This document shows, one piece after another, positions 5,354-61,837 of a stretch of 64,000 nucleotides of DNA (the stretch's first letter is position 1; every line of letters begins with the position of its first letter). The DNA comes from Diaporthe sp. PMI_573 (taxonomy: Eukaryota > Ascomycota > Sordariomycetes > Diaporthales > Diaporthaceae). Below the pieces are notes generated by a model. The model did no database searches, had not been told where the DNA came from, and saw only the letters and a program-made list of their open reading frames with translations. Position numbers and translations under genes: made by a program. The DNA is taken from positions 310,001 through 374,000 of the forward strand of contig JAJTUP010000030.1 in NCBI GenBank assembly GCA_021399435.1. Reading direction: 5' to 3'.

Positions 5354-5830
5354 AGACATATAAACGTCGTCATTCAAAAATATTATAGACTTCTTTTGTG
5401 ATTCTAATACTCTAAAGCTTCGGCCACATTGTGTTTTATAATTAACTTTTTCTTTTTACTGTCACGATAGGGTAGCCAATGCACAGCGCATTGGCAGCTG
5501 CTTTTGTGCGTGACATAATCTTACTATCTTCCTTCAGACGCAACCTGGAAACCTGTCAAGCTGGATATGCCCGAGATCCCGCTCACTGGCGAGGTTCCTA
5601 CAACAGTCTACTTCCAAGATCGGTGCCATACTGGGTTAGCTTGGCAACACTCTAGAGTGAAAATAATTAGAATCTTGCCGGCGGCAAGTTAGTCACTCGT
5701 GAGGCTTCCCCCGCATTGATGCGTTAAGAACGTCGATAACATTGGCCTGGCTTGCTACATCCGCCGTTCCTTACTCCCGTCCGGCGTATCTATTTCTCAT
5801 ATCCAAGCAAGCCAATTGGACATTCGAACG
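5354..5830. other. 5' flank of P450 gene
   Basis: No coding signal seen. A+T-rich stretch at 5370-5460; the rest is presumed promoter and leader of the P450. Confidence 0.5.
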
Positions 5831-7479
5831 ATGGCGTCTTTCACCGTCAAGCTCCTTGCCATTATCCTTCTCTTCTGCTTCGTCAAGGTCTTTTTCTTAG
5901 ACCCATTTGTCTTCAGTGCTCTCAGGCGGGTGCCCGGCCCAACTTCCTTCGCCGTTACGAAGTGGCGTCTCGCTTACGAGGACTGGAGAGGCCGCCGTAC
6001 TCGAACAATCGCCCAACTACACTCCAAGTATGGCCCAGCAGTCCGCATAGGGCCCACCGAGGTCTCCTTCAACAGCCTGGGTGCGCTCAAGACAATTTAT
6101 GGACCCGGAAGCCGCTTTGGCAGGACAGCTTTCTATCGTATGTTCGATGTATATGGTGAACAGAATCTGTTCACCTTCCACTCCTCAGAAGAGCATGGCA
6201 CCCGCAAGAAACTCCTCTCCCACGCGTACTCGAAGTCTTCTGTACTCCAGGACAAGACGACAAAAATGGTCGAAGACAAGGCGCGGCGTTACGTTGAGCT
6301 CATTGACAGTGAGCAAAATGGCGTCAGTGACGTGTTCCTGACTCTACACTACTACTCTCTCGACAACATCACCCACTTTATATATGGAGGCTCCGGGTCA
6401 ACATCTGCTCTGCAGGGTTCAGAGGCGCATCGAGCTCTCATCTCCGACGTCATGCACCCCTCTCGCCGCAGGCTGTCTTGGTGCTGGGTACATATCCCTG
6501 CGATCACGAGGTGGCTTTATTCGCGCACAGGACGCATGGGGCAACTCGTCAAGCATATCTTGCCAATGCAGCTACCGACAACATATACTGGTATACGGAC
6601 CTTCGCTCTGCATGCATTCAACAGATTCAAAATGGATCGTCAAAGCGGAAAGCCTGGTGAGATTCTTTTAAGAGGCATTGGATGATTGACACCCACCAAT
6701 TACTGACATGCCACGCAGTTGATGAAAACTCTATTATTTCTCATCTATGGAAGTACCATCAGTCGGAGCTCTCAAATGGCTTGAATGACATGCAGGTAGC
6801 ATCTGAATGTGCGGACCATTTCCTCGCCGGCATAGACACTACCAGCGACACACTCATGTTCCTCATCTGGGCACTTTCCTTGCCTGAAAACCAAAAGTTC
6901 CAGGAAAGGTTAAGGGACGAAGTTCTCAAACTACCTGAATCATCACTCAATGAACACGGGCACCCCCGAAGTGACGCTAGCGACCATTGCACGTACCTTC
7001 ATGCCGTCATCAAGGAAACTCTCAGGCTTTACGCACCATTGCCGAGCTCCGAGCCCCGTTCGGCCAGCGCGACCTCTGTCGTGGATGGGTACACCATCCC
7101 ACCTGACACTGTTGTAGCAATGTCGCCATGGATACTCCACCGTAATCTGGAGATCTTCAAGGACCCAGAGACGTTCAATCCCGAGCGATGGCTCCAACCA
7201 TCCGTCGCCGAGTTAAATCATTGGTTTTGGGCCTTTTCGAGCGGTGGTCGGATGTGTATTGGGATGCAGTAGGTCTCTGCCAGCCTGTGTGGTCTTGCCT
7301 ACGTAAATCTAACTCAGGCTAGTCTAGCAATGGCCGAAATGACAACACTCGCCGCCACACTCTATCGGAACTATCAGACATCCGTAGCTATTGGTTTCGA
7401 GAACACAACACCTGCTATCACAGCTCGCGTGGAAACCTTCTATGACGAACGCTTTCGTTCAGTACAGGCGAGTTTGTGA
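5831..7479 (+). CDS. Cytochrome P450 monooxygenase
   Basis: Three exons (5831-6656, 6719-7268, 7323-7479) give 510 residues, normal for a microsomal fungal CYP. The start is ATG 5831 (an upstream in-frame TTG is not used). Residues ~4-22 are a hydrophobic N-terminal anchor (FTVKLLAIILLFCFVKVFF) followed by the Pro-rich hinge RRVPGPTSF. Diagnostic motifs: I-helix AGIDTT (~312), ExxR KETLR (~374), PERW, and heme loop FSSGGRMCIG with the thiolate Cys at ~455. The third exon acceptor is the second of two close AGs, because only that one gives the conserved CIGMHLAMAEM. It should hydroxylate or oxidise a hydrophobic metabolite at the ER; substrate unknown. It is the first of four intact oxidation/transport genes spaced through 5.8-17.4 kb. 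Confidence 0.93.
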
Positions 7480-20165: not shown

Positions 20166-21650
20166 AGCAGCATAAGCACGGTTCCAAGCAGTAGACCGCA
20201 TAATTAGGTAGTCGCCTGGTACTCAAGGCGTCTGGAAGGGGTGTGTAACCTGGGGACGCTACGGCAGTGGTGGGCGCAGATAAAGTTTGCTATTTTTCGA
20301 AGCACGGGAATTCGCGTCTGCCGCCCAGCTGCACGGCACATGATTAAGCAAACAGAGCAACAGAGACCCAAACTTGCTTCCCTAATCGCGTTCGATAAGG
20401 GTTTCGACTTGTCCTTCGCTTTCGATGTCCGAGGGGCTAATAAGAAGCGTATCTTAATCCTTCACCGAGATGATCATGACCGATCTTGGAGGGAATCTAG
20501 CCCATGCCACTCAGGGATATAGGCCAGGATGCACAACCCCCCGCCGTTGGGACGCAGATGATCTGATAAGATGACAGAAATTGTGGGTGTAAAGACGGCT
20601 TGGCATGTGTCTAGGTTCACTACTACCTAGGAACGTGGGCGCCTAGGGGCACACCGGACTTAGTCGGCTTGCAGGCATAATACTCTAGTACGATTCTATT
20701 GCGTCGATATTGATACAAGACCGACTGTATTGTATATCATGATACAGTGTAACAAGCTTGAAGGGAGCAGAAGCCATGTTATATTGGTATCTTGAGCTTT
20801 GTTTGATCTGGGCCACTGCTCCCGATGTAACTGCATCGCGCTGCAAAACATCTGAACCATTCCCAGTTGCCAGGGGATCTACGCTAGCCGACCACGAGCC
20901 CCTGAACCTTGCCAGGGCGGAAGGATCCGGACCTGCAGCTCAGGAAGACCAATGAGATTGCTGTAGATACGCCCCGAGCTGGACCTGACAGGCAGAGGTC
21001 CCCTTCTTTTCTGCAGGCCCGTGCCAATATGGTTGGTCACAGGGTGAGTACGCCTGCTACGTACACCGTATTGTCACATGCTATGGGCCGAGGGTACGGT
21101 GTGCTTGAAATGTTCCACCTCATATGGAAGGTCCACATTATGTGGCGCAGTCTGTGCGGGCCAATCTTGGAATTTTCCAGGCCCCAAGCCTCTCGGCCAT
21201 GTGCCAATTTGGAGCTAAATCAAACTTCCAAGACACGTGTCGTGTCTCGTATGCGTATGCTTTTGTTGGGAGTGGCAATGGAGCGAACGAGAATATGGCA
21301 GCATTGCACGGGAGGCGCTGCCGTGTTTTGAAATTGCCCCCACAAAAGGAGACACCCCTACTTGTACAACAACGTGCCTGCTGTCGACCACGGACCCAAG
21401 GACCCAAGGACCCAGGGACCAAGGGGTTCGCTCAATGATGTAATCTGTCCTTCACCTGCGCCATGGACTGGTGCAGGACTGGTGTGCCCTGCATGAATGC
21501 TCGATTTGGCCTTTCTTGAATCGAAACACGGGCTAGACCACACACTACCTTGGCGCGCTTCTTGGCCCCTTGCCAAACCTTCCCACCGATCACCTTGCGG
21601 GGGATATTTTCTTTTTCTTTTTCTGTCCTCCTCAATCCCAATCCCTAAAC
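20166..21650. other. Long intergenic stretch
   Basis: No convincing gene. It includes a short (GGACCCAA)n-like repeat near 21390-21425. The frames at 20758-21438 lack recognisable features and overlap in conflicting phases. Confidence 0.45.
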
Positions 21651-21714
21651 TGGTCGTTCGTTCGATCGTTCGTTCGTTTGTTCGTTCCTTTCTCACCTCA
21701 ACTGCGCGACCATC
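21650..21714 (+). promoter_or_regulatory. TTCG-type tetranucleotide repeat leader of the desaturase gene
   Basis: A TTCG/TCGT-rich tetranucleotide tract (21651-21690) and CT-rich DNA precede the desaturase ATG, a usual fungal core promoter/leader composition. Its length is likely to vary between strains. Confidence 0.5.
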
Positions 21715-23412
21715 ATGGCGCAGCAGTCTTCGACATCGGCCACGGCCACGGCCACGGCCACGACGACTGCGACTGTGACGGCGACTGCGACGGCGACGGC
21801 AGCGATGCGGACGGTGTCTCTGATACCAGATGCCAACGAGTCCCTCCTAAGGCCTGGCCAGAAGCCCAGCTACATGACGCGCCGCGGACCGCACATCTCT
21901 GAGCAGCCATGGACGCTCACCAACTGGTACCTCCACATTGACTGGTTCAAGACGACGCTCCTTGTCTTCATCCCCCTCGTTGCGATTTACTATGCATGCT
22001 ACACGCCACTCACGCGCCCGACCCTGATCTTCTCCGTCCTGCTGCACCTCTGGTCCGGCATTGGTATCACAGCAGGGTACCACCGCCTCTGGTCTCACTG
22101 CTCCTACAGGGCAACCCTGCCCCTACAGCTCTTCCTGGGCTTCGGTGGCGCCAGCGCCCTCGAGGGCTCCATCCGCTTCTGGAGTTGGGGCCACCGCGCC
22201 CACCACAGGTTCACCGACACCGACGCCGACCCGTATACTGTTCACAAGGGCTGTGAGTCAAGATCCAGTCCTCCCATCCCCTCCATCTTTGGATCAGCCC
22301 CCCCCCTTGCACCAATTGCCCGGCCGACTGAGGGGTTAAAGGCTGCATGTGATGCCCTATGGTGTCCCCCGGTATTCTGTGCAACCGAACGTGATGCTGA
22401 TCTCGGGACACGATACATAGTGTGGCACGCACACATGGGCTGGCTCCTCACCAACCAAGACTACAAGAAACACGGCCGCACCGACATCTCCGACCTCTCC
22501 AACGACCCCTTCGTCGTCTGGCAGCACAAGTACTATGCCCCGATATCTATATTCTTCGCCTGGGTCATGCCGCCCTTGGTCGCCGGGTTTGGGTGGGGGG
22601 ATTGGAAGGGCGGGCTCATCTACGCCGGTGTCCTCCGCGTCGTGACGGTCCAACAGAGCTCCTTCACCATCAACAGCCTCGGGCACTATCTTGGCGACCA
22701 GCCCTTCGACGACAGGCGCTCTCCCCGCGACCATTGGATCTCGTCCCTGTTCAGCCTCGGCGAGGGGTACCACAACTTTCACCATGAGGTATGAGAACAC
22801 AGCGCCCACGTCGTGCATCGGCGTCCGCATTTATTTGCCCGGTTCTCCCACTAACCTGCCCACCAACAGTTTCCTACCGACTACCGCAACACCACGAGGT
22901 GGTTGACCTACGACCCGAACAAGTGGTGCATCGCCACCTGGAAATGGATGGGCCTGGCGAGCGACCTGCGCACCTTCTCCCAGAACGAGATCGACAAGGG
23001 CAAGCTCCAGCAGGAGCAGAAGAAGCTGGACCGGAAGCTGGGCGTCCTCGACTGGGGCAAGCCGCTCACCATGCTACCCCTGATGGAGTGGGACGACTTT
23101 GTCGAGCAGTCGAGGTCCCGCGCCCTGATAGCCGTCGCCGGCCTGGTGCACGACGTGACGGACTTTGTGCACGAGCACCCGGGCGGGAGGGGGCTAATCT
23201 CGACCGCCATCGGCAAGGACGCCACCGCCATGTTCAACGGGGGCGTGTACAACCACTCCAACGCGGCGCGGAACCTGCTGGCCAAGTACCGGGTCGGCAT
23301 CATCCGCGGCGGCGGCGAGGTTGAGATCTGGAAGGTGCGCGCGCAGAAGCGCGCCGAGATGATACGGGATTATGATTATTCTATCGTTGGTTCCAAGGAG
23401 CATATGCAGTAG
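21715..23412 (+). CDS. ole1: Delta-9 (stearoyl-CoA) fatty acid desaturase with C-terminal cytochrome b5
   Basis: Exons 21715-22252, 22421-22788 and 22870-23412 give 482 residues, the usual OLE1 size. The three histidine boxes that hold the di-iron centre are HRLWSH (123-128), HRAHHR (160-165) and HNFHH (297-301), with four hydrophobic segments around them. The C-terminal domain has the b5 heme motif HPGG (~404) in [13 protein letters not shown] and supplies electrons in cis. It inserts the first double bond in acyl-CoA at the ER. The first ~30 residues are a Ser/Thr/Ala run coded by a GGCCAC/GCGACT-type microsatellite. Intron 1 (168 bp) is a multiple of three without a stop; splicing is assumed because it restores HKGLWHAHMGW. 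Confidence 0.95.
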
Positions 23413-23665: not shown

Positions 23666-24913
23666 TCACGAGTACCACAAGGCGTTAGAACAGCACCCCC
23701 CACCGTCATCAATATCAAGATGCGCCACCACCGCCGCCGAGCCGGCATCCACGTCCAGCCTCCAGACCTCCACGAACCCCGTCGAGTTGTCCGTCAGCAC
23801 CGCGATCTCATCAGCATACGGGCTCGGCGACAGGATATTCGAAAACCCCCCGCTCGACGACGTCGCCTCGATAAAGTTTTGCTTGACGATCGCGCCCCAC
23901 TCATCCAGCGAGAACACCGACACGTACCCCGTGGTATTCGTGTGCCGTCCCCTGTTGCTGGCCCACAGGTACTTGTTGCTGGCCGACAGCGCGACCTCGT
24001 CCGCCCAGTAGCCGGTCGGGTCCTGCGACGCAGAGAGCAGGAGCGGGTACGCGAGTTCGTAGGCCGGGATGCCTGTCTCTGGGTCGATGGCGTACTGCGC
24101 GAGCTGGCTCGACCCCTCGAGGATTACGTAGAGGTATTGGCCCCGCGGGTGAACCACGACGTGGCGCGGGTCTGAACCCGGCGTGGGCCCCGTCAGGTTC
24201 GCCAGGACCGAAACCTCGCCCGTGTCCCGGTCGACCGCGTGCGTCCAGAGGGTATTCCCCGTATCGTCGGCCGAGTACAGGATCCTTGAGTCCCGGCTCA
24301 GGGCGACCCCATGGACGCCCGAGATGTTGGGGAAGTAGGTATAGTTCTGGACCACGCCGTCCAGCACCCCATCCTGGTCAACAGAAAGCACCGCCCCGCA
24401 GCCTGCGTTTATGCCGGTGCCCCTTACTGACGAAAAAAAGGTCCCGTAGGCGTTGTGGGGCGGGCGGGGGTCCGCCACCACGAAGATGGAGGTCGCGGTG
24501 CAGTCTTCGCCGCCCGCGGGGATGGTGGACCTGTGCGAGATGGATGTGGCGTTGGTTATTGAGTAGCTTACGAACTTTGGGGTTTGGGCCTGGTTGGATT
24601 GGCCGTAGGCTGTGGTGTAGAGGTTTTTCTTGTCGTGCTGTGTGGGTGTGTGTTTCTTTGCTTAGCGACTGGTGTGTTTGAGAAAAGGGGGCAAGGGATG
24701 GGATGGAGTGAGTGGAAGCATATGTACGTTGAAGGCAATCCAGTTTCCTGCGTATGGCACGGAGGTGTTGGCAATCAGGTTCAGGGTTAGTGCCTCATCG
24801 TCAAACTCGACCGTGTACAGGGATTTGGTGCTGAATGTCCCGATGATGAGCTCGTGTATGGCAGCATGTGCCCCGAGGATCAGGCTTGAAAGGGTAATGA
24901 GGGAGGTATACAT
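23666..24913 (-). CDS. Secreted lactonase-type seven-bladed beta-propeller protein
   Basis: Start ATG 24913; exons 24728-24913 and 23666-24637 (90-bp intron) give 385 residues. The N-terminus MYTSLITLSSLILGAHA is a signal peptide. The body carries repeating propeller blades: ELIIGTFSTKSLYTVEFD, GVHGVALSRDSRILYSAD, DPRHVVVHPRGQYLYVILEG, DEVALSASNKYLWASNRGR and VEVWRLDVDAG. DPRHVVVHPRGQYLYV is the signature blade of the 6-phosphogluconolactonase / carboxy-cis,cis-muconate cyclase family (PF10282). Because it is exported it is not likely to serve the pentose phosphate pathway; an extracellular lactone or aromatic-acid substrate is possible. Cysteines near the C-terminus (GGGCCSN) may form a disulfide. 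Confidence 0.88.
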
Positions 24914-27323: not shown

Positions 27324-27854
27324 TTACTCGCTAATCAGAGACCAGACCGCATCATCATCGACACCAGGCTTAGCCTCACGCTTCTCGCTGATCAGGGACC
27401 AGACCGCATCATCATCAACAGCAGGTTTAGCCGCACGCTTCTCGCTGATCAGAGACCAGACCGCATCGTCATCAACACCAGCGGCACGCTTCTCGCTGAT
27501 CAGAGACCACACCGCATCGTCGTCGACGCCAGGCTTAGCCTCACGCTTCTCGCTGATCAGAGACCAAACCGCATCATCATCAACACCAGGCTTAGCCTCA
27601 CGCTTCTCGCTGATCAGAGACCAGACCGCATCGTCATCAACACCAGGTTGAGCGGCACGCTTCTCGCTGATCAGAGACCAAACCGCATCGTCATCGACAC
27701 CGGCTCCAGGGCCTGTCTTCGAAGTAGCTGCAGTATCATCAGTTGGCTATCGACACAAATACAGGTGATTTCACATACCATGCTTCATCGGCGGAGCGGC
27801 ATAAGCTTCAGACAGCATAAAAGCTGCGACAAGGACGAGTTGCTTGATCTGCAT
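27324..27854 (-). CDS. Kex2-processed repetitive RiPP precursor peptide (dikaritin/UstA type)
   Basis: Start ATG 27854; the first exon 27779-27854 codes MQIKQLVLVAAFMLSEAYA, a signal peptide, then APPMKH. After a 51-bp intron (27728-27778) the second exon (27324-27727) codes seven near-identical units, VDDDAVWSLISE, separated by KR followed by EAKPG, AAQPG, AAG or AAKPA. The total is 159 residues. KR is the Kex2 protease site, and the following EA/AA pairs are removable by a Ste13-type dipeptidase. Unit length is 57 nt, except one 51-nt unit lacking the Lys-Pro codons; the last unit ends ISE-stop without KR. Secreted precursor plus neighbouring UstY oxidase is the defining pair of dikaritin RiPPs. 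By analogy the core lies just before KR, here probably (V)WSLISE. A non-modified Kex2 repeat peptide is the alternative. Confidence 0.88.
27327..27700. repeat. Seven-copy coding tandem repeat
   Basis: The CTCGCTGATCAG word recurs seven times at ~51-57 nt spacing, the first copy with one change (CTCGCTAATCAG). Copies differ mostly at synonymous or linker positions, pointing to recent unequal exchange or gene conversion. Confidence 0.9.
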
Positions 27855-27964
27855 CTTTGTGATTGGAGTTTGACAAGAATTCTTGGTCAGGAGTTCGTTT
27901 TGCGTTTTGGACTTGGAGCATAAGGATAATGAGATGTGAAGAGATATCAAAGGAGTGCTGATGG

Positions 27965-27976
27965 TTTATATATTTT
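27965..27976 (-). promoter_or_regulatory. TATA box of the precursor gene
   Basis: On the minus strand AAAATATATAAA lies about 112 bases upstream of the precursor ATG, a typical spacing for a strongly expressed fungal gene with a short leader. Confidence 0.45.
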
Positions 27977-29122
27977 GAATCCAGTTCTTACTACGTCACT
28001 AACACTTTGGTGAGTGTGCATTTCGCCATGTATAATTTTATTCATTCAGCATCAGTGTTCATAAGTGGGGAAGTAGACAACACAACTACTGTTACTATGC
28101 TCCATATATTTCCGCGAAGAACCGGATACTGCAGAGGGTCAGACAGGTGGCCAACTCAATCTAGTCCGGTGAGGCACAGTGGATTCTCAAGCACCGACTA
28201 ATGATACTCCGGGCAGCGTTGTGTACTCGCGAGACTCGGTCTCGAGAGTATTTTTACGGTACCGACTTTGATGGCCCCATATTATAAACTCTACAGTTTG
28301 GCTCGTGGATCGTAGATCTCTGGAGTTTCGCCGAGGGTTTTCCGTCAAATTACACCATCATGTACAGCAAATACTATACCCAGTCCAACACCTCTTCACA
28401 CGCTTAATGTAAACAAACAAGTATTCCACAAGCTAACAATTTCAGCCATAATTTTCTCATTGCTGACAATTAGACTGCTAATGAAATCATGGTGATAAAG
28501 GCATTATAGTAGAGTCTCGGAAATGGATACATGACAGCCTCGTCCTGTTTCTGACTGGAGTGGAAGCCCGACGCAACCCGTTTCTCCCAAGAAGTGTTGC
28601 TCCAGCTGCCGTGTGACCTCGGGATGCACTGAGTGTCCAGCTCATGTTCAAACTGACAGAGCCCCCGCCAGGAAGCTGAATACCGACCTTGCCGCAGAGA
28701 GTGATTACTATTTCACGCAGTATCAGTATGAAACAGTTGCACACATTATGGACCGTACAGGGTTACCGAGGGTGTACATACGTGTACTGCAGCTGATCCA
28801 CGGTCAAAGGTTGGGACCGAGCGGAATTCGATTTCCGGGGTATTATCGCGATGACGATGCTGAGCCCAATGAAACGTAGAATTCAGTGAATACCGCCCGG
28901 TCTCGCAGGATCGCATGCGGCGGCAGAGATATGGTGGACATGCCGCCAATGAAAAATAGCATCCGCCCACGCGCCCGAGATGTTAAAACGGGACTCATCC
29001 CCTCGAAAGTGTTGAAAGGTTTTGACCATCAGGCCTCTCTTCAGGTTTCTTCCAAGACCACATCATTGATCAGTATGCCCTCTGCGAACTTCTTTCAATT
29101 TCTCAAATCTACCCAAGCCAGG
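27977..29122. promoter_or_regulatory. Divergent promoter region, precursor / UstY oxidase
   Basis: About 1.2 kb between two outward-facing start codons. Short frames here (28487-28970, both strands) show no family features. Shared regulation of the pair is inferred from layout. Confidence 0.4.
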
Positions 29123-30430
29123 ATGTCAATGCTCGAGAAGAACACTCTCCCCGAGTACAACCCCGTTTCAGACGATGGCGACTCTGAGGATGCGAGCGAG
29201 CAGGACGTCTTGATGTACAAGGCAAGAGACGCGGCCGCTCGCAAGTCACGCCTGCGCGGTCTTGTTGTCCGCACATCAGTTTTCCTGCTCTATACCTCTC
29301 TCCTCGTTGGGGCGACCTCGTGGTGGTGGATGAACGACAGGTTACACGGGCCCGGAGTTATCAAGTGTAAGCCGTAGAGCTCTCTACCACAATGCGTCAA
29401 GTTTCCTGAGGCTGACTCCTATTCCAGCACCTTTGAGGCCATATGTCAAGTATGAGGAGAAGTGGTTTCCAAAAATGGACACCACTCATTTCATGACTGC
29501 TGGACCTCCTGATGACACTGGGGAGCGCGACGCTGTTTGGGATGAACTGACTCAATGTAAGGACCACCCTGTGTCTTTAGGGAGACGTGATCGGACAACC
29601 TGCTGACGACTTTCTCTTGTATCAGTCTTCTTCTCGGAGTTCCCTCGCAAGGACATGGAACGGCTTGGGCGAGCTGATGAAGCCATACAATTGCCAAATG
29701 GTGAGTATGCTCACGAAAGAGTTACACCCCGCTCCGTGATAACCCTTGATGCACGAATTGTGGAGCTACTTGATGCGAGAAGCAAAGACTGACTGTAGCT
29801 ATAGGGAATTACCTCGTCCTGTACACCGTCAATCATCTGCTCCATTGCTTGGTAAGCCTACTGCTTCGCTGTCTTCATGCACACGGTCTGCTGACATGGT
29901 CTCAAGAAACGTCTTCATCACTCGCGGTATGCCGACCATTACTATCCAAACATGACAGATGACGAGGTGCAGAAGATGGACAAGCATGACAGTAAGCGGA
30001 GAAACTTCAAACCTTACAACATATCTCGGCCAAGAGCTAAACAGCAACTTTCTGCAGTGCATTGTATCGAGGACCTCGTCCAGCAGGTGATTTGCCATGC
30101 CGACACAGCCCCATACACCTCGCGGTGGTATGCGCGGGACCCTCGCCCCACTGGCAATTCCGACATCGCGCACGAATGCGTCAACTGGGACATGCTCAAG
30201 GGGGAGCTCAGGAGGCGGCATGTCGACCCGTGGCAGCCTGGCCTCCTGGTGCATCCTTTCCTTGGTGAGTTTGAGTCTAAGCATGCTTTGTGCGACAGAA
30301 GCTGACCTAGTTGCTTTCTACAGGTCCCGTGGTGCCGGATGGCAAGGATACCGAATTCCCTGACAGGATGTCATATCCTTCCGACTTCCGTCACGTTGGG
30401 GAGTCGCCGGAGGATGTGAAGCCTCATTGA
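29123..30430 (+). CDS. UstY-type oxidase (DUF3328), RiPP cyclase
   Basis: Seven exons (29123-29366, 29428-29556, 29626-29700, 29805-29851, 29907-29991, 30058-30264, 30324-30430) sum to 894 nt, 297 residues. MSMLEKNTLPEYNPVS is chosen as start because family members begin with a short acidic cytosolic segment; ATG 29075 is an in-frame alternative. A single transmembrane helix (~47-70, VVRTSVFLLYTSLLVGATSWWWM) is followed by a lumenal domain. Both signature copper/metal motifs HxxHC are present: HLLHC (160-164) and HDMHC (192-196), the second completed across an intron. The PSDFRHVGESPEDV end region is also typical. UstYa-family proteins form the oxidative side-chain crosslink that closes the macrocycle of ustiloxin, phomopsin and asperipin-type peptides. 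It is the divergent neighbour of the repetitive precursor, which is its likely substrate. Confidence 0.92.
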
Positions 30431-33538: not shown

Positions 33539-35047
33539 CTATTCTTGCTGGGGCAGCGCCCACTTCACCATCCACTCGGACTTGAGCACCTCGTGTATTG
33601 TCAGACGCTCCTCCGGTCGGAATCTGAGCATACCACGCACCAGGTCAAGAATAGCCCGTGTCTCTTGTTCATCAAATGTCCCAGCCGCCTCTCGCTTTCT
33701 CCTGTACTTTTGCACAAACTCCTCGAAGGCATTTTCGAGACTGGGCCATGTTTCCCGGACACCAGTTGGCCGACGGGGAATTGCCGTGTTACCATCCTTA
33801 TCTTCTTCGCCCTGCCGTTCCCATTGTTCTCTCCAGCTTTCAGGAAAGTTTGAGGAGCCCAAGACGTCGATTTGCTGAGCCACGATCTCGTCTTGGGTCT
33901 CTGCCTCGCTGAAGATAAACTTCATTCCTAATATCTCCCAAATGGCCGTTCCAAGACTCCATATGTCTGAGGAAAACGACAAAGGTGAGTCCGGTTCGAA
34001 TACAGCCTCGGGCGCCTTCTTGGCCAGAGGAGTGTTGCATTCCCTCCCAAGGCGCCGCTCCGTAGCTGGGCAGAAGGCCTCGCCAAAGTCGCTGAGGATC
34101 AATCCCTGCGTGTCAGCCAGGGTAAAGTCTTGAGCTTTTTGCCCGAGGTAAAGAGGCTCCACCGCGTAGGCTGGGACGATGGCAGTGAGGGGCTTGTCAT
34201 CGACTCGGGAAATGGGTACTGTCTCAGGCTCGCCGTATTGTTCCCTGAACTCCTTGATTGAAAGTTCATCAAATGTTGACGGCAGCTTGACCAACACGTT
34301 GCGAAGATGAATATCTAGATTTCTTTTGGTTAGTTTCACCTCTATTAATCCGCTGTAGGTGGACTAAGACAGACCTCCATGCACAAAACCACGTGAGTGA
34401 ACCGCTGCAACCGCAGTCGCCAGCTTTGCAGACCAAGCGCGGGCAACTTGAATGGGAAATAGGCGACTGAATGATGCTTCTTTGAGATTTCCTTGGGCGG
34501 GAGTCAACGTGTAGCATGGGTGCGTCCCATTCGGTCCGCGAATGTCGAAAGCATCAAGAATGGTTGGCAGCGCGGCGGATGAAGCTGCGTCGGACGGTGC
34601 GCCGGGTTGTTGTGAGCTCGAAGTCGAGCCATGTAACGCTCTGAGCGTTTCTGGCTCTCGTCGAGGGAGCGAAGGACTCGAAATGCCGATCTTGACGGCG
34701 ACATAGCGTTTGTCTACCTCGTCTCGAGCGAGCCATATCGTCGAGTAGCCACCAAACCCCAGTTTCTCAACGATTCGATAGCGATCGTGCAGTAAATCGT
34801 CAATCAAAACGGGATGGTATCCACCGGGCCGGTACAACTCCAGGCGCTCAACCCCATTGATCCAATGATACCCAATTGATGAAGCGGGCGGCACAGTCGA
34901 AAATTGGGCGCCAGAGCAACAGATGCTCGGCAAACGTTGTGGGTTCTTGACTTTGAGGTTTCTTAATCGGCAGTCTTGGGCATTGACAAACGCTTTAGGA
35001 TGGGATCCGGGGAAACGAAGCCCTGAGATGAGTCTTGACCAGAGCAT
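33539..35047 (-). CDS. SRPK-like serine/threonine protein kinase
   Basis: Start ATG 35047; exons 34375-35047 and 33539-34314 (60-bp intron) give 482 residues. Motifs: YRPGGYHPVLIDDLLHDRY before the kinase fold, glycine loop GFGGYSTIW (~93), VAVK, catalytic loop HGDIHLRN (Asp 225, created by splicing), DFGEAF (300-302), KAPEAVF, and SDIWSLGTAIWEI. GGYHPV and the layout place it with fungal SR-protein-kinase-like enzymes. The catalytic loop has His-Gly-Asp-Ile-His-Leu-Arg-Asn where classical kinases have HRDxKxxN, so the usual catalytic-loop Lys is replaced; activity is uncertain. The first ~30 residues are basic and could be a targeting segment. Head-to-head with the NACHT gene about 1 kb away. 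Confidence 0.88.
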
Positions 35048-36095
35048 GGTCGAAGTCAGCCCAGTACGAAAGGAACAAACGCGATTATTGACTTTTGGAA
35101 GACGTGTCAGCCGTACCAACACAACCAAAGCGTGAGCCACTTCCGAGGGGGGTGATTAAGTAAGCGGGATGCCGAGCATGTTTGGGCACCAATGCACTGG
35201 ATGTTCCTGTCAACGGATATTCTTGGTGGACAATCTCTTCCTTCTTAGCATGCCGTCAGCTCGGGGCCGCATTGAGACTCGAAGAAGCGATCACCCCTTT
35301 GGCGCGTATGCACTTCAGCTCGCAGGTTCAGAGCTTGCCATCCAGCCCGGTTGCCATATTGTATTGCACAGTGTCTGATGGAGGGACGATGTAAAGAGCT
35401 CGTGCGAATGGTGTTGGCTGGCCGACGGGACCGAGATTTGAATTTAGCCGTGTTCAGTCCGCAGAGATGCAGCAGTGTGTGTTCCACCGCATGATAGGGG
35501 GGGTGGGGTGTTGGAAGCAATTCCATAAAAGAGAACACTAATTGAGGCTGAGCTTTCCAGCGAAATCTCTGGGAGTTCGCATTCCTCCCCCCCGTAGGGC
35601 CACGTTACCCTGAAAAGGGCATGGCAGAAGACAACAAACAGGTCTTGGTGCCTCGCATTTGGCAACACGCCCACGCCGACACATTCTGGCGCACGCCATT
35701 CTCTGCAGCCTGCTGTCATCGCGGCTGTGCTGAACGGTGTGTCTGCCCAGGCAGATTTATTGCATTTGAAGACGCAGGTTCTGCCAATGGGATGCACACG
35801 TAAATCATCCCCGCCCGAATGTGTACTACAGCATTTGGTACTACCCCAGCGCTCGCGGGTGAGGGTGCTTATCCCCATCCAAAACCCTGTTGGTAGGTGG
35901 CATCCGGACGCCGCGTTAGGCGTTCTAGGCATCCCCGATACCAACCTCGGCATTGGCAGCCGCACATATATCATCGACCCGACCTCTCCATCTTGTCAAG
36001 GTGCATGCGTTTCACCAGTTGGCAGTCTGTTCGGCTAACCACATAAGCATTCTTTCTTATTTTGCATTCCTTTGATCCCTCGCAAGCCCACCACC
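35048..36095. other. Divergent spacer, kinase / NACHT protein
   Basis: No gene recognised. A minus-strand 176-residue frame (35444-35974) has no features. Confidence 0.45.
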
Positions 36096-39000
36096 ATGTC
36101 AGGTCTGGAGCCCCTGGCGGCCCTCGGTCTGGCGGGCAACATATTTCAGTTTGTTGAGGCTGCCGCCAAAATTTGTACCATGGTCGCACAAATCAGGAGA
36201 AAATCCCTTGACGATCTGGTAAAAGAACACTTCCAGCCAGCTGAAATCGCACGCAAGATGGGGTACTGTGTTCAGGCTCTGAAAATCAACAAATACCCCA
36301 CGTGTCAAACCGAGGATGAGACGAGGCTCAACGAGATTGCGGATGATTGTATCAGCATATCGGAGGAGCTAGACTCTGTGCTTGAGCTGATCGAGAACCG
36401 ATATATCTCCGTGAGCCATGAGACCAGGAAACCAGTCAAGATCGCGAAGGAATTTAGGCTAGCTGCGCAGCTCTTGGAGACGAGAAACCGGATGCGCGAC
36501 CTCGCCAAGAAGCTAGATAATCACAAGAAACTCCTGACAGATTCTGTTGTCACTTGCATCCCAGACAGGTTACATAAGATGCACCAGGACTTAGGCGAGA
36601 CCGCCGGCAACGCCCATGGCTTTTATAAAAGCATCCTTGACGCCATTGATTCCAACGACCGGAGACTCGACGAGATGACGCAGGAGCTGAAGGAGTATGT
36701 CAAGGGGCTGGTGGAAAGGCGCTTCTCGGACGACGTGGAGGCGGCCAAGTCGCCAGACACACGCTCACAAGACTCTGTACTTCAACTGAGCGACGATATC
36801 TTTGCCTCCGGAAACTCAACGGAACTTCTCTATACCTTAATCGCTATTGCTCGTGGTATGTCGCCTACAACAATCGAGGATAGGATACTCGGATCCCTGC
36901 GATTCAGAATGATCGAAGATAGGCACATGAGCGTGAAGAAAGCGTATCAGGACACTTTCGAGTGGATCCTTCAAAGCCAGAAGCCGACTCAACCCGACCG
37001 TCCGGAGAATGGACTCCCGAAATGGCTAACGGACGGTACTGGTATCTTTTGGATTCGTGGGAAGGCCGGCTGTGGAAAATCAACCTCGATGAAATTCCTT
37101 CTGGGCAATCACCAGCTACAGCAATTGCTTCAGGAGTGGGCTGGGGAGGATGAGCTTCTGATCACGTCCTACTTCTTCTGGGCCGCTGGTTCGTCACTCC
37201 AGAAGAATCAAGAGGGTTTACTAAGATCCCTGCTCTATTCCATTCTATCCCGTCGAAAAGACCTCATCCCGAACCTTTTCCCGTTCCGCTACACCGCCAG
37301 CATGAACAAGTGAGGCCGATCCGCCGCTAGTTTCAGATGGGTCAGGAAAAGCTGACCAATTGTCGCAGGTCTGAGATATTGTTCTCGTGCTGTCAGCCCG
37401 ACTGCGATGCAGTCTTCGACAGAGCACAAGAGATGAAATTTCATCTAGAAACGAAGTAAACAAATACCTAACTCTCGATAATCCCAAGAGCTGGATCACA
37501 TTTTAGCTAACCTAACTTTTCAGGCACAAGATCGAGTCAGAGAAGGAGCAGATAAAGTTAACAGCCCTTTGCGAGACGGAATTCACACTACCAGAGCTTT
37601 ACGATGTCTTTTTGAGACTAGCACACACCCTTACCAAAGGTCTAAAGATCGTTCTCATCGTTGACGGCCTTGATGAATATAAAGGTGACCAGGCAGACCT
37701 GGTGGACTTTTTCAAGGACCTGACGTCAGGATCCACCGTCAAGGCAATCGTATCCTCACGCCCGGAGCCTTTGTTTATGAATGCTCTACAGGCCTGCCAA
37801 TCACTCCGGATGGACTTACTGATGAAGGACGATATGGAATTGTATGTCACCTCTAAACTTGAACTCCACCGGCACATGCGGCGCTTTCTTTCCACGAATG
37901 CTGGATGTCTGCAAGATATCTCCACTACTGTGGCCAAACAATCAAGCGGTGTGTTCCTATGGACAGCATTGGTAGTTAGGCTTCTGGAAGAAATGCTGGA
38001 CACCGGTTGCTTCCTGCGTGAGCTCTCCGAGGCCATTTATGCGTACCCTGTCGAAATTTCGGCATTGTTTCGCCATATGCTATTGCGTGCCAAAGAGGGA
38101 CACAAAACCGAACGTTTTCGAATCTTCACGCTTGCCCGTATGGCGGAAGAGACTGAAGGGCGCTTCCCAAGTCTCCTTCGGTTTTGGTTTTTCCTCTCAG
38201 AGTCCCCAGGTACCTCTGTTGGGGCACAATCTAGGTTTCTTGACAGGGGAGCTACTTTCCAAGATCAGCTCGATATCGCGGCCGACCGGATCCGGAGCAG
38301 ATGCTGCGGGCTACTCGAGTGCGTTACACATGCGATGAGCAAAGAGTACTACGAGGACTTCGAGGGCATTGTCAAACCCTTTCACCGAACTCTTTTCGAC
38401 TTCTTGCGGGAGCCGGAGGTCATAAAGATGATGGCGGAGCAGTCAGGAAACTTCCAACCCAATTCAAGGCTACTAGAGTCGATTCTGTTGTGGCTGAAGA
38501 AGACATGGGTGTGGCAAAGTGGGCACTCGGAAGACCTCAAGAAAATGTTGGAGTCCGCTATGGTCTATTTACGACGTTCCGAGGACCAAAGTCCATCGCC
38601 GGCGGACTACCTACAGTCGCTCGACGCGGCTACGGTGGAAGTCTGGGCGGCCTTGAAGCAAAACGCCGAGAGCTCGAGGGCCTTTCCGGACTACCAAATG
38701 CCCTGGTTCCAACTCCTCGACAAGGTTGATGTGCGCAGTGTGCATGATCTAAGACCGCATCATTGCAAAGTCTGTCTTGCGCTCTCTTATCGACTGTCTC
38801 GTATTGTCAAAGACACAACGAACGTAACTCTCGTTGAATGGGATGTCGGTTGGGGGCATGCATCCACGCTCATGATCTGCTGGGCTGTGTATACAAACGT
38901 GGAGTGTCCAATGGACCCCGAAATCACATTCATGATCCTCCATCTGGCGAGGAAGTGCAAGCTCAAAGGACCAAATCTCTGGGAGCGACCTTTATGGGAG

Positions 39001-39993
39001 ATTGTGCTACTCATGCGGCCTCTGGGACCAGCTCTGACCACATTGCCACGGTACTGCCAAGAGATAATCGCAGACTGTTCCTCTAGTTTTCGTGCATTCA
39101 ACAAGTGGGCCCACATTGTGCAGGCAATGATGAAGGCAGGGGAAACACTCCAGCATTCTTGTCCGTTGTTAGGTCATGGTCAGAAGAGCGGACGCGGGGA
39201 GAAAATCTCAGCGCGAGAGATCATCGAAAGCGGAATCACCAATTATCTTTCGAACAGAGCAGGGCGATCTTCTACATTCGAAGCCAATGGTCTTATGCCA
39301 TGCGCCACTAAGTCTTCTGATGAATCCTCAGACACTTGTGTGGATGTCGATCAACTTCACAGACTCCTAGAGAGCACCTCGATCGATGGAGATGACTGTA
39401 TGAAAGGATCTGAAAGCTGCTCGAATATTTCCCAAGAAAAGCTTCAGCAGCATGAGAGAAAGGGTAAGGAACACGACAACACACAACCAGTGGATGCAAC
39501 CGGCTGTGAAAAGCCACTGTTGCCAAAGCATCAATTAAGTCCACAGTCCGAGTCGACAGAAACCGTGCCAACTGATGAAGGGCCGAATTTTGTACAAATA
39601 ATAACACGTGAGGTTTTTGAGGCCGTTGAGAATCTGGGATCCAATACCAGAACTGAGACGCTGGTAACCTCGATCACAGAGAGACAGCGCGTCGTCGTTG
39701 ACCTCTGCAGCCGCCAGCGAAGGCAAGAGGCGGATTCTTCTTGGCCGGTAGTCGGCTTACCCTGGGTAGATTATGGTAAACAGCGGTTGGCAATCCCGGC
39801 TGCAGTTTGGACGGAGCCCACCAAAAAGAGACCTAAATTTAGACCACAAAAGCGAGCGGCCGTCATTCACCACGCTTCACGTTTGGAAGGGGAGGTAATC
39901 AGTCAATCTAGGCTCCTTCACTGGACGGTGGCCAAGGGTCCAGGATTAACGGCGGATGAGCAGCAGCGGTTGAACGATGTATTCGATAGATAG
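36096..39993 (+). CDS. NACHT-domain STAND protein (fungal NLR-like)
   Basis: Three exons (36096-37309, 37369-37455, 37524-39993) give 1256 residues. The N-terminus MSGLEPLAALGLAGNIFQFV starts the fungal STAND N-terminal helical domain, followed by a coiled-coil-rich stretch to ~260. The NACHT core has Walker A GKAGCGKST (322-330) in GIFWIRGKAGCGKST, FFWAAGSSLQKNQEGLLRSLLYSIL, Walker B IVLIVDGLDEY (~476-486), and the sensor VKAIVSSRPEP, then the winged-helix-like region with VEISALFRHML. The remaining ~550 residues show no WD, ankyrin or TPR repeat. NACHT proteins act as cytosolic signal-responsive ATPases, in fungi including heterokaryon incompatibility. The ligand and effector output here are unknown; the N-terminal domain is not obviously a HET or HeLo pore former. 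Confidence 0.9.
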
Positions 39994-54580: not shown

Positions 54581-55584
54581 TAGAGTGTCAGCCGAGGTTC
54601 ACGTAGATTCCAGACTTTTTCACACTACAGCCTTGCACATGGTCAGCCCAGTGAATATGTCGAAGCACTGGCAGGTGTGGGGGCGATGGTAAGCGTGTTC
54701 CTGGCTGCACGGGACACAAGGCAGCGATTGGGACGCTTGAGATACGGCCTGGGTTCGGTTTTAAGAGAGCCAATGCCGAAGGGCGTGATACAATATCTAT
54801 CGATTGACAATACATGTGCTGCTCCATTTATTGGCGCGTCGGGCACCGTGTTGATGCCAAAAGAGCATGGTTCGATTGTGATGACCTTGTAGAAGCCTCT
54901 GAAGCGCTTAGAGGTGGATACGATTGTTGGCTTGCGTATTGTTTTGGGTTATATCGTCTTTGAATGTTAATTGTGCCAGTGATGGTATTCGTATTTGCGG
55001 GAATAGCTGACAGTTGAAAGGCTAAACTCGCTCACTATTGTCGTCCTCAGAAGGTCAAGAGCATTTGTAGTTAGAGGGTGCAGACATGTTAATTCCGGTT
55101 AATTCAGCAGCCAAGGCCCGAATTGGTCATGGGGCTCGTCTACGTAGTAATCCTCTCGGCTTTCTCCACTACCGACACAATGTAACTGGCCGGCCGAGTT
55201 TTGATTGCCGGCGCCTACCCCAGACAATTATGCCGAGTCGCGCCTTGCCCATGCCTACCCTGTTTGGCGGAGAATTGCTAAGGTCAACTTGGCTATGATG
55301 CTCCGAATACCACATGCCCGTATTATCCACTATACAGTATAGCTTGAGTCGACAACAGGCCATGCGCACCAATAGTCTTTTACCATTAAAAAGTTGCATT
55401 TTCTTACCCCGCCCCAATGAGAGCAGTCGCTTTTACGACCAGCTATTGCGAAGAAGTATGTATATATCGTGGCATGTCAAATAGTTCAAGCCCTCAAGTG
55501 CTTCAAGTGCTCATCCTACGATCCGCTGTCGGCCCCATCCGCTTCATGCGTACCCATTGGCACCCGCCATTCCTCCCCTGAATC
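54581..55584. other. Intergenic, nothing recognised
   Basis: 3' flank of the AAA gene and promoter of the GH127-type gene; no supportable frame. Confidence 0.5.
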
Positions 55585-57450
55585 ATGTTGCTGAATACCT
55601 TCCTCGGGTGTCTACCCGCGGCCCTCTTGGCTTCCGCCCAAAGCATCCCACCCATCGCCGTCCCGGAGGTAGGAGTCACCGCGTACCCCTTCGACCTGAG
55701 TCAAGTGGCGCTGAGCAGCAGCCGCTGGACAGACAACCAAAATCGAACACTAAACTATCTCCGATCTGTGAATGTTGATCGACTGCTGTACAACTTTAGG
55801 GCAACGCACAAGCTCTCCACCAACGGCGCTCAGGCAAATGGTGGATGGGACGCGCCAGACTTCCCGTTCCGCTCGCATGCTCAAGGACACTATCTCACAG
55901 CCTGGGCGCAATGCTATTCGACTTTACGCGACACCACATGCCGGGATAGCGCAACATATTTCGTGGCTGAATTGGCGAAATGCCAGGCCAACAATGGCGC
56001 TGCAGGTTTCAATACAGGATATCTGTCCGGATTTCCAGAATCGGAGTTCAACGCTCTCGAGGCTGGAACACTGAGCAACGGCAATGTGCCATACTACGCC
56101 GTTCACAAGACTATGGCTGGCCTGCTGGATGCATGGCGCATCATCGGCGACACCAAAGCGCGCGATGTCCTCCTTGCACTCAGCGGCTGGGTCGATCAAC
56201 GCACCGCGAAGCTCACCTCTGCCCAGCTGCAAAAGATGCTGGGCACCGAGTTCGGCGGCATGAACGATATCTTGGCCAACGTCTATCAGCTCACCGGAGA
56301 CAGACGATGGCTTACTGTGGCCCAGCGATTCGATCACACGGCTGTCTTTGACCCTCTCGCAAACAAACAAGACAGCTTGAGTGGCCTTCATGCCAATACG
56401 CAGGTGCCAAAATGGATCGGTGCTGCTCGAGAATACAAGGCTACCGGCACCCAACGCTACTTGGACATTGCGCGAAACGCCTGGGACTTCACCGTCAATG
56501 CTCACACATATGCCATCGGGGGCAACAGCCAGGCAGAGCACTTCCGCCCACCCAATGCAATTGCACAATATCTCACCACCGACACCGCTGAACATTGCAA
56601 CACATACAACATGCTGAAGCTGACGCGGGACTTGTGGACCATGGACCCAATGAACATCAAATACTTCGACTTCTACGAGCGTGCGTTGATGAATCACATT
56701 CTCGGGGCTCAAAACCCGGCGGATAGCCACGGTCACATTACCTACTTCACACCACTCAAGCCCGGTGGTCGACGAGGTGTTGGCCCAGCATGGGGTGGCG
56801 GTACGTGGAGTACCGACTACGACTCCTTCTGGTGTTGCCTGGGCACGGCTGTGGAGACCAATACCAAGCTTATGGATTCCATCTACTGGTACGACAACTC
56901 CGGAGTCTATGTGAACCTCTTCACACCCTCGACCTTGGACTGGACGCAGCGCAGTGTCAAGATTGCCCAGACGACAACATACCCCGTTGGTGACACAGCC
57001 ACACTGCAGGTGACCGGGACAGGAGACTGGACCATGCGCATCCGCATCCCCCAGTGGGCTTCCGGCGCAACAGTCACCGTGAACGGGCAAGCAGCAGGCG
57101 TTGCCGCGAATCCTGGGAGCTACGCGACCGTCACGCGCTCGTGGAAGTCCGGTGACACTGTCACTGTCAAGCTGCCGATGAAGCTGCGAACAGTGCCCGC
57201 CGCTGATAACCCGAGCATCGCCGCCGTGGCCTATGGACCAGTGGTCCTGAGCGGCAACTATGGCACCACTGCTCTCACTGCGTCGCCCAAGTTGGAGTTG
57301 AGCTCAATTCGCCGCACGGGTACTTCTAATCTCGCATTCACGGCGACGGCGGACGGCAAGGCGGTCAACCTGGGTCCATTCTATGATGCGCAAGACTTCA
57401 ATTATAATGTTTACTGGGCAATTACTGGCACATTGCCCACCTCTACGTAG
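55585..57450 (+). CDS. Secreted GH127-type beta-L-arabinofuranosidase (DUF1680)
   Basis: Single exon, 621 residues, signal peptide MLLNTFLGCLPAALLASAQS. The (alpha/alpha)6 barrel has VNVDRLLYNFRATHKLSTNGAQ, GGWDAPDFPFRSHAQGHYLTAWA, EFGGMNDILANVYQLTGD, HANTQVPKWIGAAREY, SQAEHFRPPN, and TAEHCNTYNMLKLTRDLW. FWCCLGTAVETNTKL (Cys 417/418) is the cysteine motif that supplies the nucleophile and zinc site in GH127. Beta domains follow. It should release terminal beta-L-arabinofuranose from arabino-oligosaccharides or hydroxyproline-linked glycans outside the cell. Having no intron in an intron-rich region and an actinobacterial-looking sequence suggests old transfer from bacteria (inference). Confidence 0.88.
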   Translation: MLLNTFLGCLPAALLASAQSIPPIAVPEVGVTAYPFDLSQVALSSSRWTDNQNRTLNYLRSVNVDRLLYNFRATHKLSTNGAQANGGWDAPDFPFRSHAQGHYLTAWAQCYSTLRDTTCRDSATYFVAELAKCQANNGAAGFNTGYLSGFPESEFNALEAGTLSNGNVPYYAVHKTMAGLLDAWRIIGDTKARDVLLALSGWVDQRTAKLTSAQLQKMLGTEFGGMNDILANVYQLTGDRRWLTVAQRFDHTAVFDPLANKQDSLSGLHANTQVPKWIGAAREYKATGTQRYLDIARNAWDFTVNAHTYAIGGNSQAEHFRPPNAIAQYLTTDTAEHCNTYNMLKLTRDLWTMDPMNIKYFDFYERALMNHILGAQNPADSHGHITYFTPLKPGGRRGVGPAWGGGTWSTDYDSFWCCLGTAVETNTKLMDSIYWYDNSGVYVNLFTPSTLDWTQRSVKIAQTTTYPVGDTATLQVTGTGDWTMRIRIPQWASGATVTVNGQAAGVAANPGSYATVTRSWKSGDTVTVKLPMKLRTVPAADNPSIAAVAYGPVVLSGNYGTTALTASPKLELSSIRRTGTSNLAFTATADGKAVNLGPFYDAQDFNYNVYWAITGTLPTST

Positions 57451-60046: not shown

Positions 60047-61837
60047 ATGTCTTTCTCAACCGGCCGCGGAGACTTTCACGTTGCGTGGACGCCTCAGGTG
60101 TTCCTGACCATCGTTTTCGGAACCGTTTGTCTTGCCTGATGCCCCTCCTGCCTTAGCACCGCAGGATCGAAGTAACTGGTCACTAATCTTCGTGCGTCTA
60201 GGTCATATTCTACTTGACTGTTCAATCAATCTGGCGATTGCATTTTCACCCTCTGTCCCGGTATCCGGGGCCGAGACTGGCGGCAGTGTCTGATATTTGG
60301 TTTGCTTATCATTCGTAAGATGACTCGACAGGCTGATTGATATGAGAGTTACTAAACAATGTTAGATTGACGGGCCGATGGCCGTGGGTTGTGGAACAAG
60401 CTCTCAAGAAATATGGTACGTCCCACACAAATACTTGTTGAATATTGCTTTAGCTTTGGCCTAACCCTTTACCGTGACCACAGGCGACGTTGTTCGTGTC
60501 GCTCCTAACGAGCTTGTGTTTTCTACTCCTCAGGCCTTGGCAGGTACGTACCACTATCCCAGGTCCAACCACAATAATAGTGTCTCATGCATAATTCACC
60601 CATATCTGTACGGCTCGCACGACAAATTCCTAGAGCGTTTCCCGAAGACGCAGATCAATAACCATGGAAACGACGAGCACGGCGGACTCATCTGGGAGTG
60701 GGACCCCGTGAGGCATCGCCAGGTCGCCAAGCAAATGTCGCCAGCCTTCAGTGGAAAGGCACTCAAAGCCAAGGAGCCAACCATACACAAATATGTTGAC
60801 CTCTTTGTCGAGCGCATGGAAGCCCTCGGCTTGGGCAAAGATGGCCAAGGGTTGACCTGCCTACTTGTATCAACTGGATAGTAAGTCGCACAACTCCAAC
60901 AGGATAGGGATATGGACCAGGGCAGCCACAGCCCGCTCGTCCTTGAGGTAGAGTTCCTTGTTTTCTCGTATGGCTGACCAAGGACCCATAGTCGGTGGAC
61001 ATTTCTGCTGACATGGCCTACAACCGAGAATTGAACGCACTACAAGATAGTAAGTGCTACACAAATCCCATCGCCTCACTTTACTCTAGTTGGACAGAGA
61101 AACTAATCCCACAACAGTGAAAGACCCGCCATACCTCTCCCTAATCAAGCGCATGAACCAAGCTGTAACAATCATCCAGATGTCCTGGCACTTTCCACTC
61201 ACCAGCCCCCTAAAATACATCTACCTAGCAGCCATGATCACAGGCCACTCCCACATCAGGGCGCACAGCCGCATGCAGCGGCGGACTTGCCGTACCTGAC
61301 ATGCTGTTTGAAAGAGTCTCTTCGATTCGTGCCCCCTCTTCTCACTGGGATGCCGGTTGAGAGTCTATGGGCCCTGGTGGGTAGGACGTATATCCCGAAG
61401 GGTGTACGTGACTGAACATCCCCACTTCCTATAGTTGTGGTTTCTAACCCTTGTGATGACACTAGGTTGTGTGCCAATCCAGCACCTTCGCGCTGGCACG
61501 GAATCCCCGCAACTTCCACCGCCCCCTAGAGTTCCGCCCGGAGAGGTGGCTATCCGCTGACGAGGGCCACCCACTTTTCGACCCGCACTTCGCCGCCGAC
61601 AACCGCAAGGGCTTCCAGCCTTTTAGCCAGTGGCCAAGGATGTGTTCGGGAAGGGAAATAGCGTGGTGGCAGAGCAGGGTGTTCCTCGCTAAAGTGTTGT
61701 GGAAGTTTGATCCGGAGGGCGTGCCTGGGCTTAATAACAAAGCGGATCTTGATCGGGACACGAGAGGCTGGGGGATGTATGTCAAGCCCGAGTTCCAGGT
61801 CAGGTTCATGCCTGTTGGTCAGAAGGATGCTGCGTAG
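60047..61837 (+). pseudogene. Cytochrome P450 relic (CYP65-like), deleted and frameshifted
   Basis: The N-terminal anchor (MSFSTGRGDF...VFLTIVFGTV), then [58 protein letters not shown] and DISADMAYNRELNAL can be followed through introns, but the frame breaks near 60850. After GHSHIRAHS (about 61258) the sequence jumps straight to DLPYLTCCLKESLRFVPPLL (ExxR). About 100-150 residues, including the I-helix oxygen-binding motif, are thus missing. The heme loop reads FQPFSQWPRMCSG with Trp in place of the invariant Gly. The end RPERWLSADEG...FMPVGQKDAA is otherwise good. It cannot make an active enzyme. The sequence style resembles the isotrichodermin C-15 hydroxylase-like group. Confidence 0.82.

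Follow-up and report, generated by a model that had tools for sequence, protein, structure and literature searches.

A divergent gene pair in Diaporthe sp. PMI_573, a tyrosine-free repeat precursor beside a UstYa oxidase gene, is probably a two-gene ustiloxin-type RiPP unit

Do the two divergently transcribed genes of this locus encode a peptide precursor together with the enzyme that modifies it and, if so, what kind of peptide would they make? The question was raised by the first-pass annotation of the window (the whole 64,000-nucleotide stretch of DNA analysed here), which described the pair as a precursor and oxidase of the dikaritin type. The genomic hallmarks of dikaritins (ust-RiPS) on which that description rested, a Kex2 repeat precursor adjoining a UstYa gene with two HxxHC motifs, are present. 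On sequence evidence, the pair is probably a two-gene ustiloxin-type (dikaritin-like) RiPP unit composed of a Kex2-processed repeat precursor and its own oxidase, and its product would most likely be a modified peptide that has not been reported before.

The exon borders of both genes were read from the DNA alone (Table 1). The seven KR-separated repeats previously claimed for the precursor are borne out by the gene model and the repeat analysis, which give seven copies of VDDDAVWSLISE at periods of 19, 19, 19, 17, 19 and 19 residues, with six KR sites between the copies. Tandem Repeats Finder describes the same region as a 57-nt unit in 6.8 copies with 87% matches (score 562). The seventh copy abuts the stop codon and lacks a KR; this position points to ...ISE as the C-terminus of the released peptide after KR has been taken off the other copies. 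The computed [M+H]+ is 1405.648 for unmodified GVDDDAVWSLISE, which would fall to 1403.633 on loss of 2 H and to 1401.617 on loss of 4 H, and 1419.664 for AVDDDAVWSLISE; for the untrimmed EAKP- and AA- forms it is 1830.876 and 1547.722. The N-terminus is hydrophobic as judged by hydropathy only (best 11-residue window 2.16, within residues 5-16). Repeats between dibasic sites are the arrangement of Kex2-processed repeat proteins (KEPs), and the precursor is presumably secreted.

Table 1. Coordinates of the features discussed; positions without a prefix are those of the window, and prefixed positions those of other scanned stretches (L) or contigs (C) of the genome.
Feature	Position	Strand	Description and basis
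Precursor gene	27854-27324	minus	One 51-nt intron, 159 residues; read from sequence
Precursor exon 1	27779..27854	minus	Start codon, hydrophobic signal-like stretch MQIKQLVLVAAFMLSEAYA, start of pro-region; gene model, hydropathy
Precursor intron	27728..27778	minus	51 nt, GT...AG; gene model
Precursor exon 2	27324..27727	minus	Seven VDDDAVWSLISE copies, six KR sites, XA/XP spacers, stop
Divergent intergenic stretch	27855..29074		1,220 bp, presumed site of both promoters
UstYa/DUF3328 oxidase gene (UstY)	29075-30430	plus	Seven exons, 313 aa; gene model, Pfam, motifs
UstY exons	29075-29366, 29428-29556, 29626-29700, 29805-29851, 29907-29991, 30058-30264, 30324-30430	plus	
Lactonase-type propeller frame	23669-24661		2.7 kb from pair; Pfam
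Cytochrome b5 frame	22855-23409		3.9 kb or more from pair; Pfam
Fatty-acid desaturase frame	21649-22791		3.9 kb or more from pair; Pfam
Kinase frame	33542-34363		3.1 kb from pair; Pfam
2OG-Fe oxygenase	13.4-15.0 kb		Farther than 5 kb; Pfam
MFS frame	16.5-17.4 kb		Farther than 5 kb; Pfam
Two P450 frames	6661-7269, 61466-61834		Far from pair; Pfam
L034 precursor	L034 7821-8159; C113:282820-283158	minus	Six EEPGPGYGL copies, SA and DAEASA spacers
L029 precursor	L029 8879-9487; C79:822378-822986	plus	Eight DEPHSDAALYGPVDW-type units, KK-x-R joints
Alpha-pheromone-type precursor	L024 3530-4678; C1:1811529-1812677	plus	Five WCFWKGQGCW copies

The 12 columns of the core are identical in all seven repeats, and the codon substitutions among them, at least seven, are without exception synonymous. 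Seven synonymous changes out of seven would be expected by chance with a probability of 2e-5 to 1e-4 (per-substitution synonymous probability 0.21-0.27 for random single substitutions), a figure that takes the substitutions as independent and would be weakened by homogenisation or gene conversion of tandem copies. Because all codon differences in the core are synonymous, the peptide itself is probably under constraint. In the six KR-preceded repeats, the only amino-acid differences lie at the first position of each spacer dipeptide (E/A, K/Q) and at the residue preceding V (G/A); the second dipeptide positions (A, P) are invariant, and the single shorter spacer lacks exactly one dipeptide, in phase. 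All six spacers after KR parse as XA/XP dipeptides, EAKP among them, although they arose by duplication and are therefore not six independent observations. XA/XP after KR (6/6) is the spacer sequence of STE13-processed KEPs, and STE13 cleavage is accordingly a prediction from it. The only aromatic residue in the repeat is Trp (no Tyr, no Phe), and the VDDDAVWSLISE core contains no Cys.

The oxidase gene also proved to be as first described, a neighbouring gene for a presumably membrane-anchored protein with both HxxHC motifs. Its six introns are all of the GT...AG type, the reading frame has no internal stops, and the protein matches PF11807 with an E value of 1.1e-35. HLLHC lies at residue 176 and HDMHC, which is formed across the exon 5/exon 6 junction, at residue 208; hydropathy gives one hydrophobic stretch, at about residues 62-81, near the N-terminus. 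A search of the intergenic stretch for a shared promoter motif yielded only weak short repeats, three of them in two copies and one inverted (71%), and Rfam gave no match at gathering scores in the whole window. A public UstYa protein of Diaporthe sp. PMI_573 (P0006), a 177-residue partial that is 98% identical to the window UstY over 56%, seemingly represents the same locus. Since P0006 is partial and the precursor has no match in the public protein collection, the deposited annotation may lack the pair or contain it in broken form.

The protein collection search returned 20 relatives of UstY, one of which, P0006, is the window locus itself. The closest from another genus is a Claviceps lovelessii protein (66% identity over 92%), followed by a Pyrenochaeta protein (63%), four further Claviceps proteins (49-63%) and thirteen mostly xylarialean proteins (37-45%). 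All 43 alignment columns that are invariant in the 20 relatives, including both HxxHC motifs, are kept by the window UstY. In a tree of 19 rows, which leaves out P0020 and also P0006, since the latter duplicates part of the window locus, the window protein groups with the five Claviceps proteins and the Pyrenochaeta protein in one clade (100/100) that excludes the other twelve. Its row is marked as a long branch and the branching inside the clade is loose, so that the tree speaks neither for nor against horizontal transfer of UstY. For the C. lovelessii relative, AlphaFold2 gave a weak model (mean pLDDT 52.7, pTM 0.38), in which both motifs are drawn on helices. A search of solved structures gave four matches, all unrelated (E 0.33-0.63).

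A word-seeded search of 5.8 billion proteins, which detects only proteins with exact 5-residue words in common, found no homologue of the precursor at E <= 0.01 and none at E <= 10 among 4277 candidates, and three words of the VDDDAVWSLISE core had no occurrence in the literature search. Both results agree with the earlier view that the core is not one recognised from the described dikaritins. The precursor has no paralogue in its own genome, where it matched its own two exons only. Pfam gave seven weak families at E <= 0.1, among which HRG (28.8 against 27 bits) and LRR_2 (24.9 against 20.9) exceeded the whole-protein cut-off, yet no single stretch passed; we read these scores as sums over the repeats and rejected homology to any of the seven. 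Among the papers listed for Diaporthe, RiPP and DUF3328, none describes the pair in its title or in the abstract displayed.

Is the pairing of the two genes a matter of chance? The genome (83.7 Mb, 217 contigs) contains 81 exon-level PF11807 matches; grouping them with a 700-base gap gives about 66 loci, and with a 10-kb gap 47 clusters. For about 66 loci in 83.7 Mb, a random point would have on average only 0.005 UstYa loci within 3 kb, and the adjacency of precursor and UstYa is therefore more than chance. A scan for repeat precursors covered 19 further stretches (L025-L043). These include 40 of the 81 matches and reach into 18 of the 47 clusters, two of which they cover in part. Besides the window precursor, the first detector found one and a looser detector two (L029 and L034), counts that are lower bounds because the first detector missed the alpha-pheromone gene and neither detector follows introns. 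The L034 precursor lies 2138 bases from the nearest UstYa match, with a second at 3.3 kb; its repeats bear Tyr, and its spacers after dibasic sites are XA/XP in five of five cases. The L029 precursor, 927 bases from the nearest UstYa match, likewise has Tyr-bearing repeats, and XA/XP spacers occur in none of its eight units. Of the three repeat precursors found near UstYa matches in this genome, two thus have STE13-type spacers, and the window precursor is the only one free of Tyr. Other repeat-bearing frames, including some in L027 and L032, antisense frames of L024/L029 and window positions 55582-57447, were judged by eye not to be of the Kex2 type.

Pfam was applied to 38 of the 150 open frames of at least 100 aa in the window and to the two spliced proteins, and the annotation of the neighbourhood is partial to that extent. 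Within 5 kb of the pair it matched the propeller, desaturase, cytochrome b5 and kinase frames. A larger cluster was considered and rejected, no Pfam-matched neighbour among the 38 of 150 frames being counted as part of the pair, although the desaturase may have a role. The two P450 frames lie so far from the pair that we do not include them as its tailoring enzymes, and the frames upstream of them (5720-6682 and 60465-60878) gave nothing in Pfam. A tyrosinase partner was also rejected, since the window has no PF00264 match; on the contig, PF00264 matches occur only at 79,386-80,019, as against 310,001-374,000 for the window. Window positions 36039-39990 hold a NACHT-type, NLR-like gene in two open frames, the first with NPHP3_N and the second with DUF7791.

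How, then, does the pair compare with described systems? In the survey of Umemura 2020 (PMC7329392), 7878 Kex2 repeat proteins were found in 1345 of 1461 strains, 2560 of them without homologues; DUF3328 genes were among the 15 nearest genes for 22% of the 7878, most commonly as the next gene. DUF3328-linked precursors number 1758 in that survey, and their repeats carry Tyr in 65.6% and Trp in 20.5%. The ether of ustiloxins, of phomopsins and of asperipin-2a is attached to Tyr, and the asperipin-2a pathway, like the window pair, has just one DUF3328 gene (PMC7329392). The window pair shares with dikaritins the Kex2-cut dibasic repeat precursor, here with a hydrophobic N-terminus, and the adjoining UstYa/DUF3328 protein with two HxxHC motifs; it differs in having a core with Trp but no Tyr or Phe, in its XA/XP spacers and, from the ustiloxin/phomopsin subtype, in the lack of a tyrosinase in the window. 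We do not take a Tyr core as defining dikaritins, because, according to a lichen survey (PMC12048977), the DUF3328 enzyme has been put forward as class-defining. Type P-3 of Umemura, Trp-containing and grouped as Y-less, resembles the window precursor in its Tyr-less repeats with DUF3328 nearby (4 of 7 members), but it is described as W plus P and the window core has no P, a comparison made by description (PMC7329392).

As for the enzyme, the DUF3328 protein CctR (PMC12435403) shares with the window UstY the HxxHC(x)nHxxHC signature and a single N-terminal membrane helix. Alanine mutants of its HxxHC residues were inactive, it holds two coppers per monomer, and the model put forward for it has a membrane anchor and a catalytic domain that lies in the lumen; the binuclear copper site of the window UstY is predicted from CctR. 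CctR differs in acting on a non-ribosomal peptide, cyclochlorotine, which it hydroxylates, so that UstYa proteins can hydroxylate instead of cyclising (PMC12435403). By analogy only, the plant BURP copper cyclases form bonds from Trp-indole-N to carbon (PMC12186524). With regard to the spacers, Le Marquer 2019 (PMC6339444) treated the STE13 signature as a mark of hormone candidates and described it as missing from the precursors of cyclic toxins and epichloecyclins. The combination of STE13 and UstYa nevertheless has precedent, since the 76 homologues of putative basidiomycete pheromones, which go back to Le Marquer's STE13-type finds, include 17 with DUF3328 neighbours (PMC7329392). The Tyr-free core and the XA/XP spacers are unusual yet precedented, because L034 also has such spacers and the survey text reports Tyr-free UstYa-linked precursors (PMC7329392). 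The precursor thus joins the UstYa-linked Kex2 repeat precursors, a class already known, as a new member; its Tyr-free core is new, and its spacers are of the pheromone type.

The pheromone-like architecture has to be weighed against this reading. The core motif of ascomycete alpha-pheromones is WC...GQ.CW. A pattern search of the genome found five copies of WCFWKGQGCW in a single reading frame at C1:1811736-1812542, which we take to be a canonical alpha-pheromone gene; two copies follow KR plus XA/XP (EATP, EAEANP), one follows KR with another spacer, and for the remaining two the 14 residues upstream contain neither KR nor RR. On that contig, the closest UstYa match is separated from the gene by some 280 kb. 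The window precursor shares the Kex2/STE13-style order of KR followed by XA/XP, and EATP and EAEANP are the nearest parallels to its EAKP, but its core is unrelated, VDDDAVWSLISE instead of WC...GQ.CW, and Cys-free, and a UstYa gene adjoins it. With the five-copy gene elsewhere in the genome, and a DPPIV-type match about 3.8 kb from it, we rejected the window precursor as the mating pheromone gene of the fungus, an identity that we consider highly improbable.

In another alternative, the precursor would release a signal of the pheromone or hormone kind, a peptide secreted in linear form and without modification, with the UstYa protein acting on something else or on nothing. The XA/XP dipeptides at six of six KR sites, the resemblance of these to two spacers of the alpha-pheromone gene, the lack of Tyr in the core and the proposal of Le Marquer et al. 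that STE13-type repeat proteins are hormone candidates (PMC6339444) all speak for it. It has to set aside, however, a UstYa gene at a distance where so few are expected and a second XA/XP-spaced precursor (L034) that has a UstYa match of its own at 2.1 kb; moreover, putative alpha-pheromone precursors are described as lacking DUF3328 nearby, with three exceptions, in the survey passages on them (PMC7329392). We regard this alternative as unlikely, though it deserves to be kept in mind. That the repeat is instead a chance tandem repeat or a decayed gene beside an unrelated UstYa gene could be argued from the absence of a matching protein in the collection searched and from the partial state of P0006. 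The frame is nevertheless open through all seven copies, the core changes are synonymous only, the intron is properly bordered and the start is hydrophobic, and we consider this explanation improbable.

Under the preferred reading, a Kex2-processed precursor with its own UstYa oxidase, the precursor would enter the secretory pathway, where the helix-anchored UstYa, its binuclear copper domain in the lumen, would oxidise each repeat. The likeliest change would be a Trp-based cross-link or a hydroxylation, at Trp or a neighbouring residue, because Trp is the sole aromatic side chain in the repeat. The cyclic product inferred in the first-pass annotation is a candidate outcome rather than an established one, given a core without Tyr, a window without a tyrosinase match, spacers of the STE13 type and the hydroxylating activity of CctR. 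Kex2 would cut after KR, a Kex1-type carboxypeptidase would take off KR, and a STE13-type dipeptidyl peptidase would trim the XA/XP dipeptides. The genome has Kex2-type P-domain (PF01483) matches on C163 and C101 and three DPPIV_N (PF00930) matches, one of them, STE13/DAP2-like, lying at C1:1816358-1817476, about 3.8 kb from the last pheromone copy. The predicted output is up to seven copies of the 13-residue (G/A)VDDDAVWSLISE or of some shorter part of this peptide, which may serve as a signal or as a defence or interaction compound.

The precursor and UstY genes are small enough for joint transfer into a laboratory Aspergillus. If UstYa oxidises the Tyr-free repeat, the pair would be a minimal one-precursor, one-oxidase system for cross-linking or hydroxylation that does not involve Tyr. 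It would also join STE13 pheromone-style processing with UstYa modification, which appear mostly as separate features in the surveyed material (PMC7329392, PMC6339444). We suggest tentatively, as a possibility that we consider unlikely, that there is a class of hormone-like peptides using both the Kex2/STE13 route and a UstYa copper oxidase, in which the signal would be cross-linked via Trp rather than Tyr, and of which L034 may be another member.
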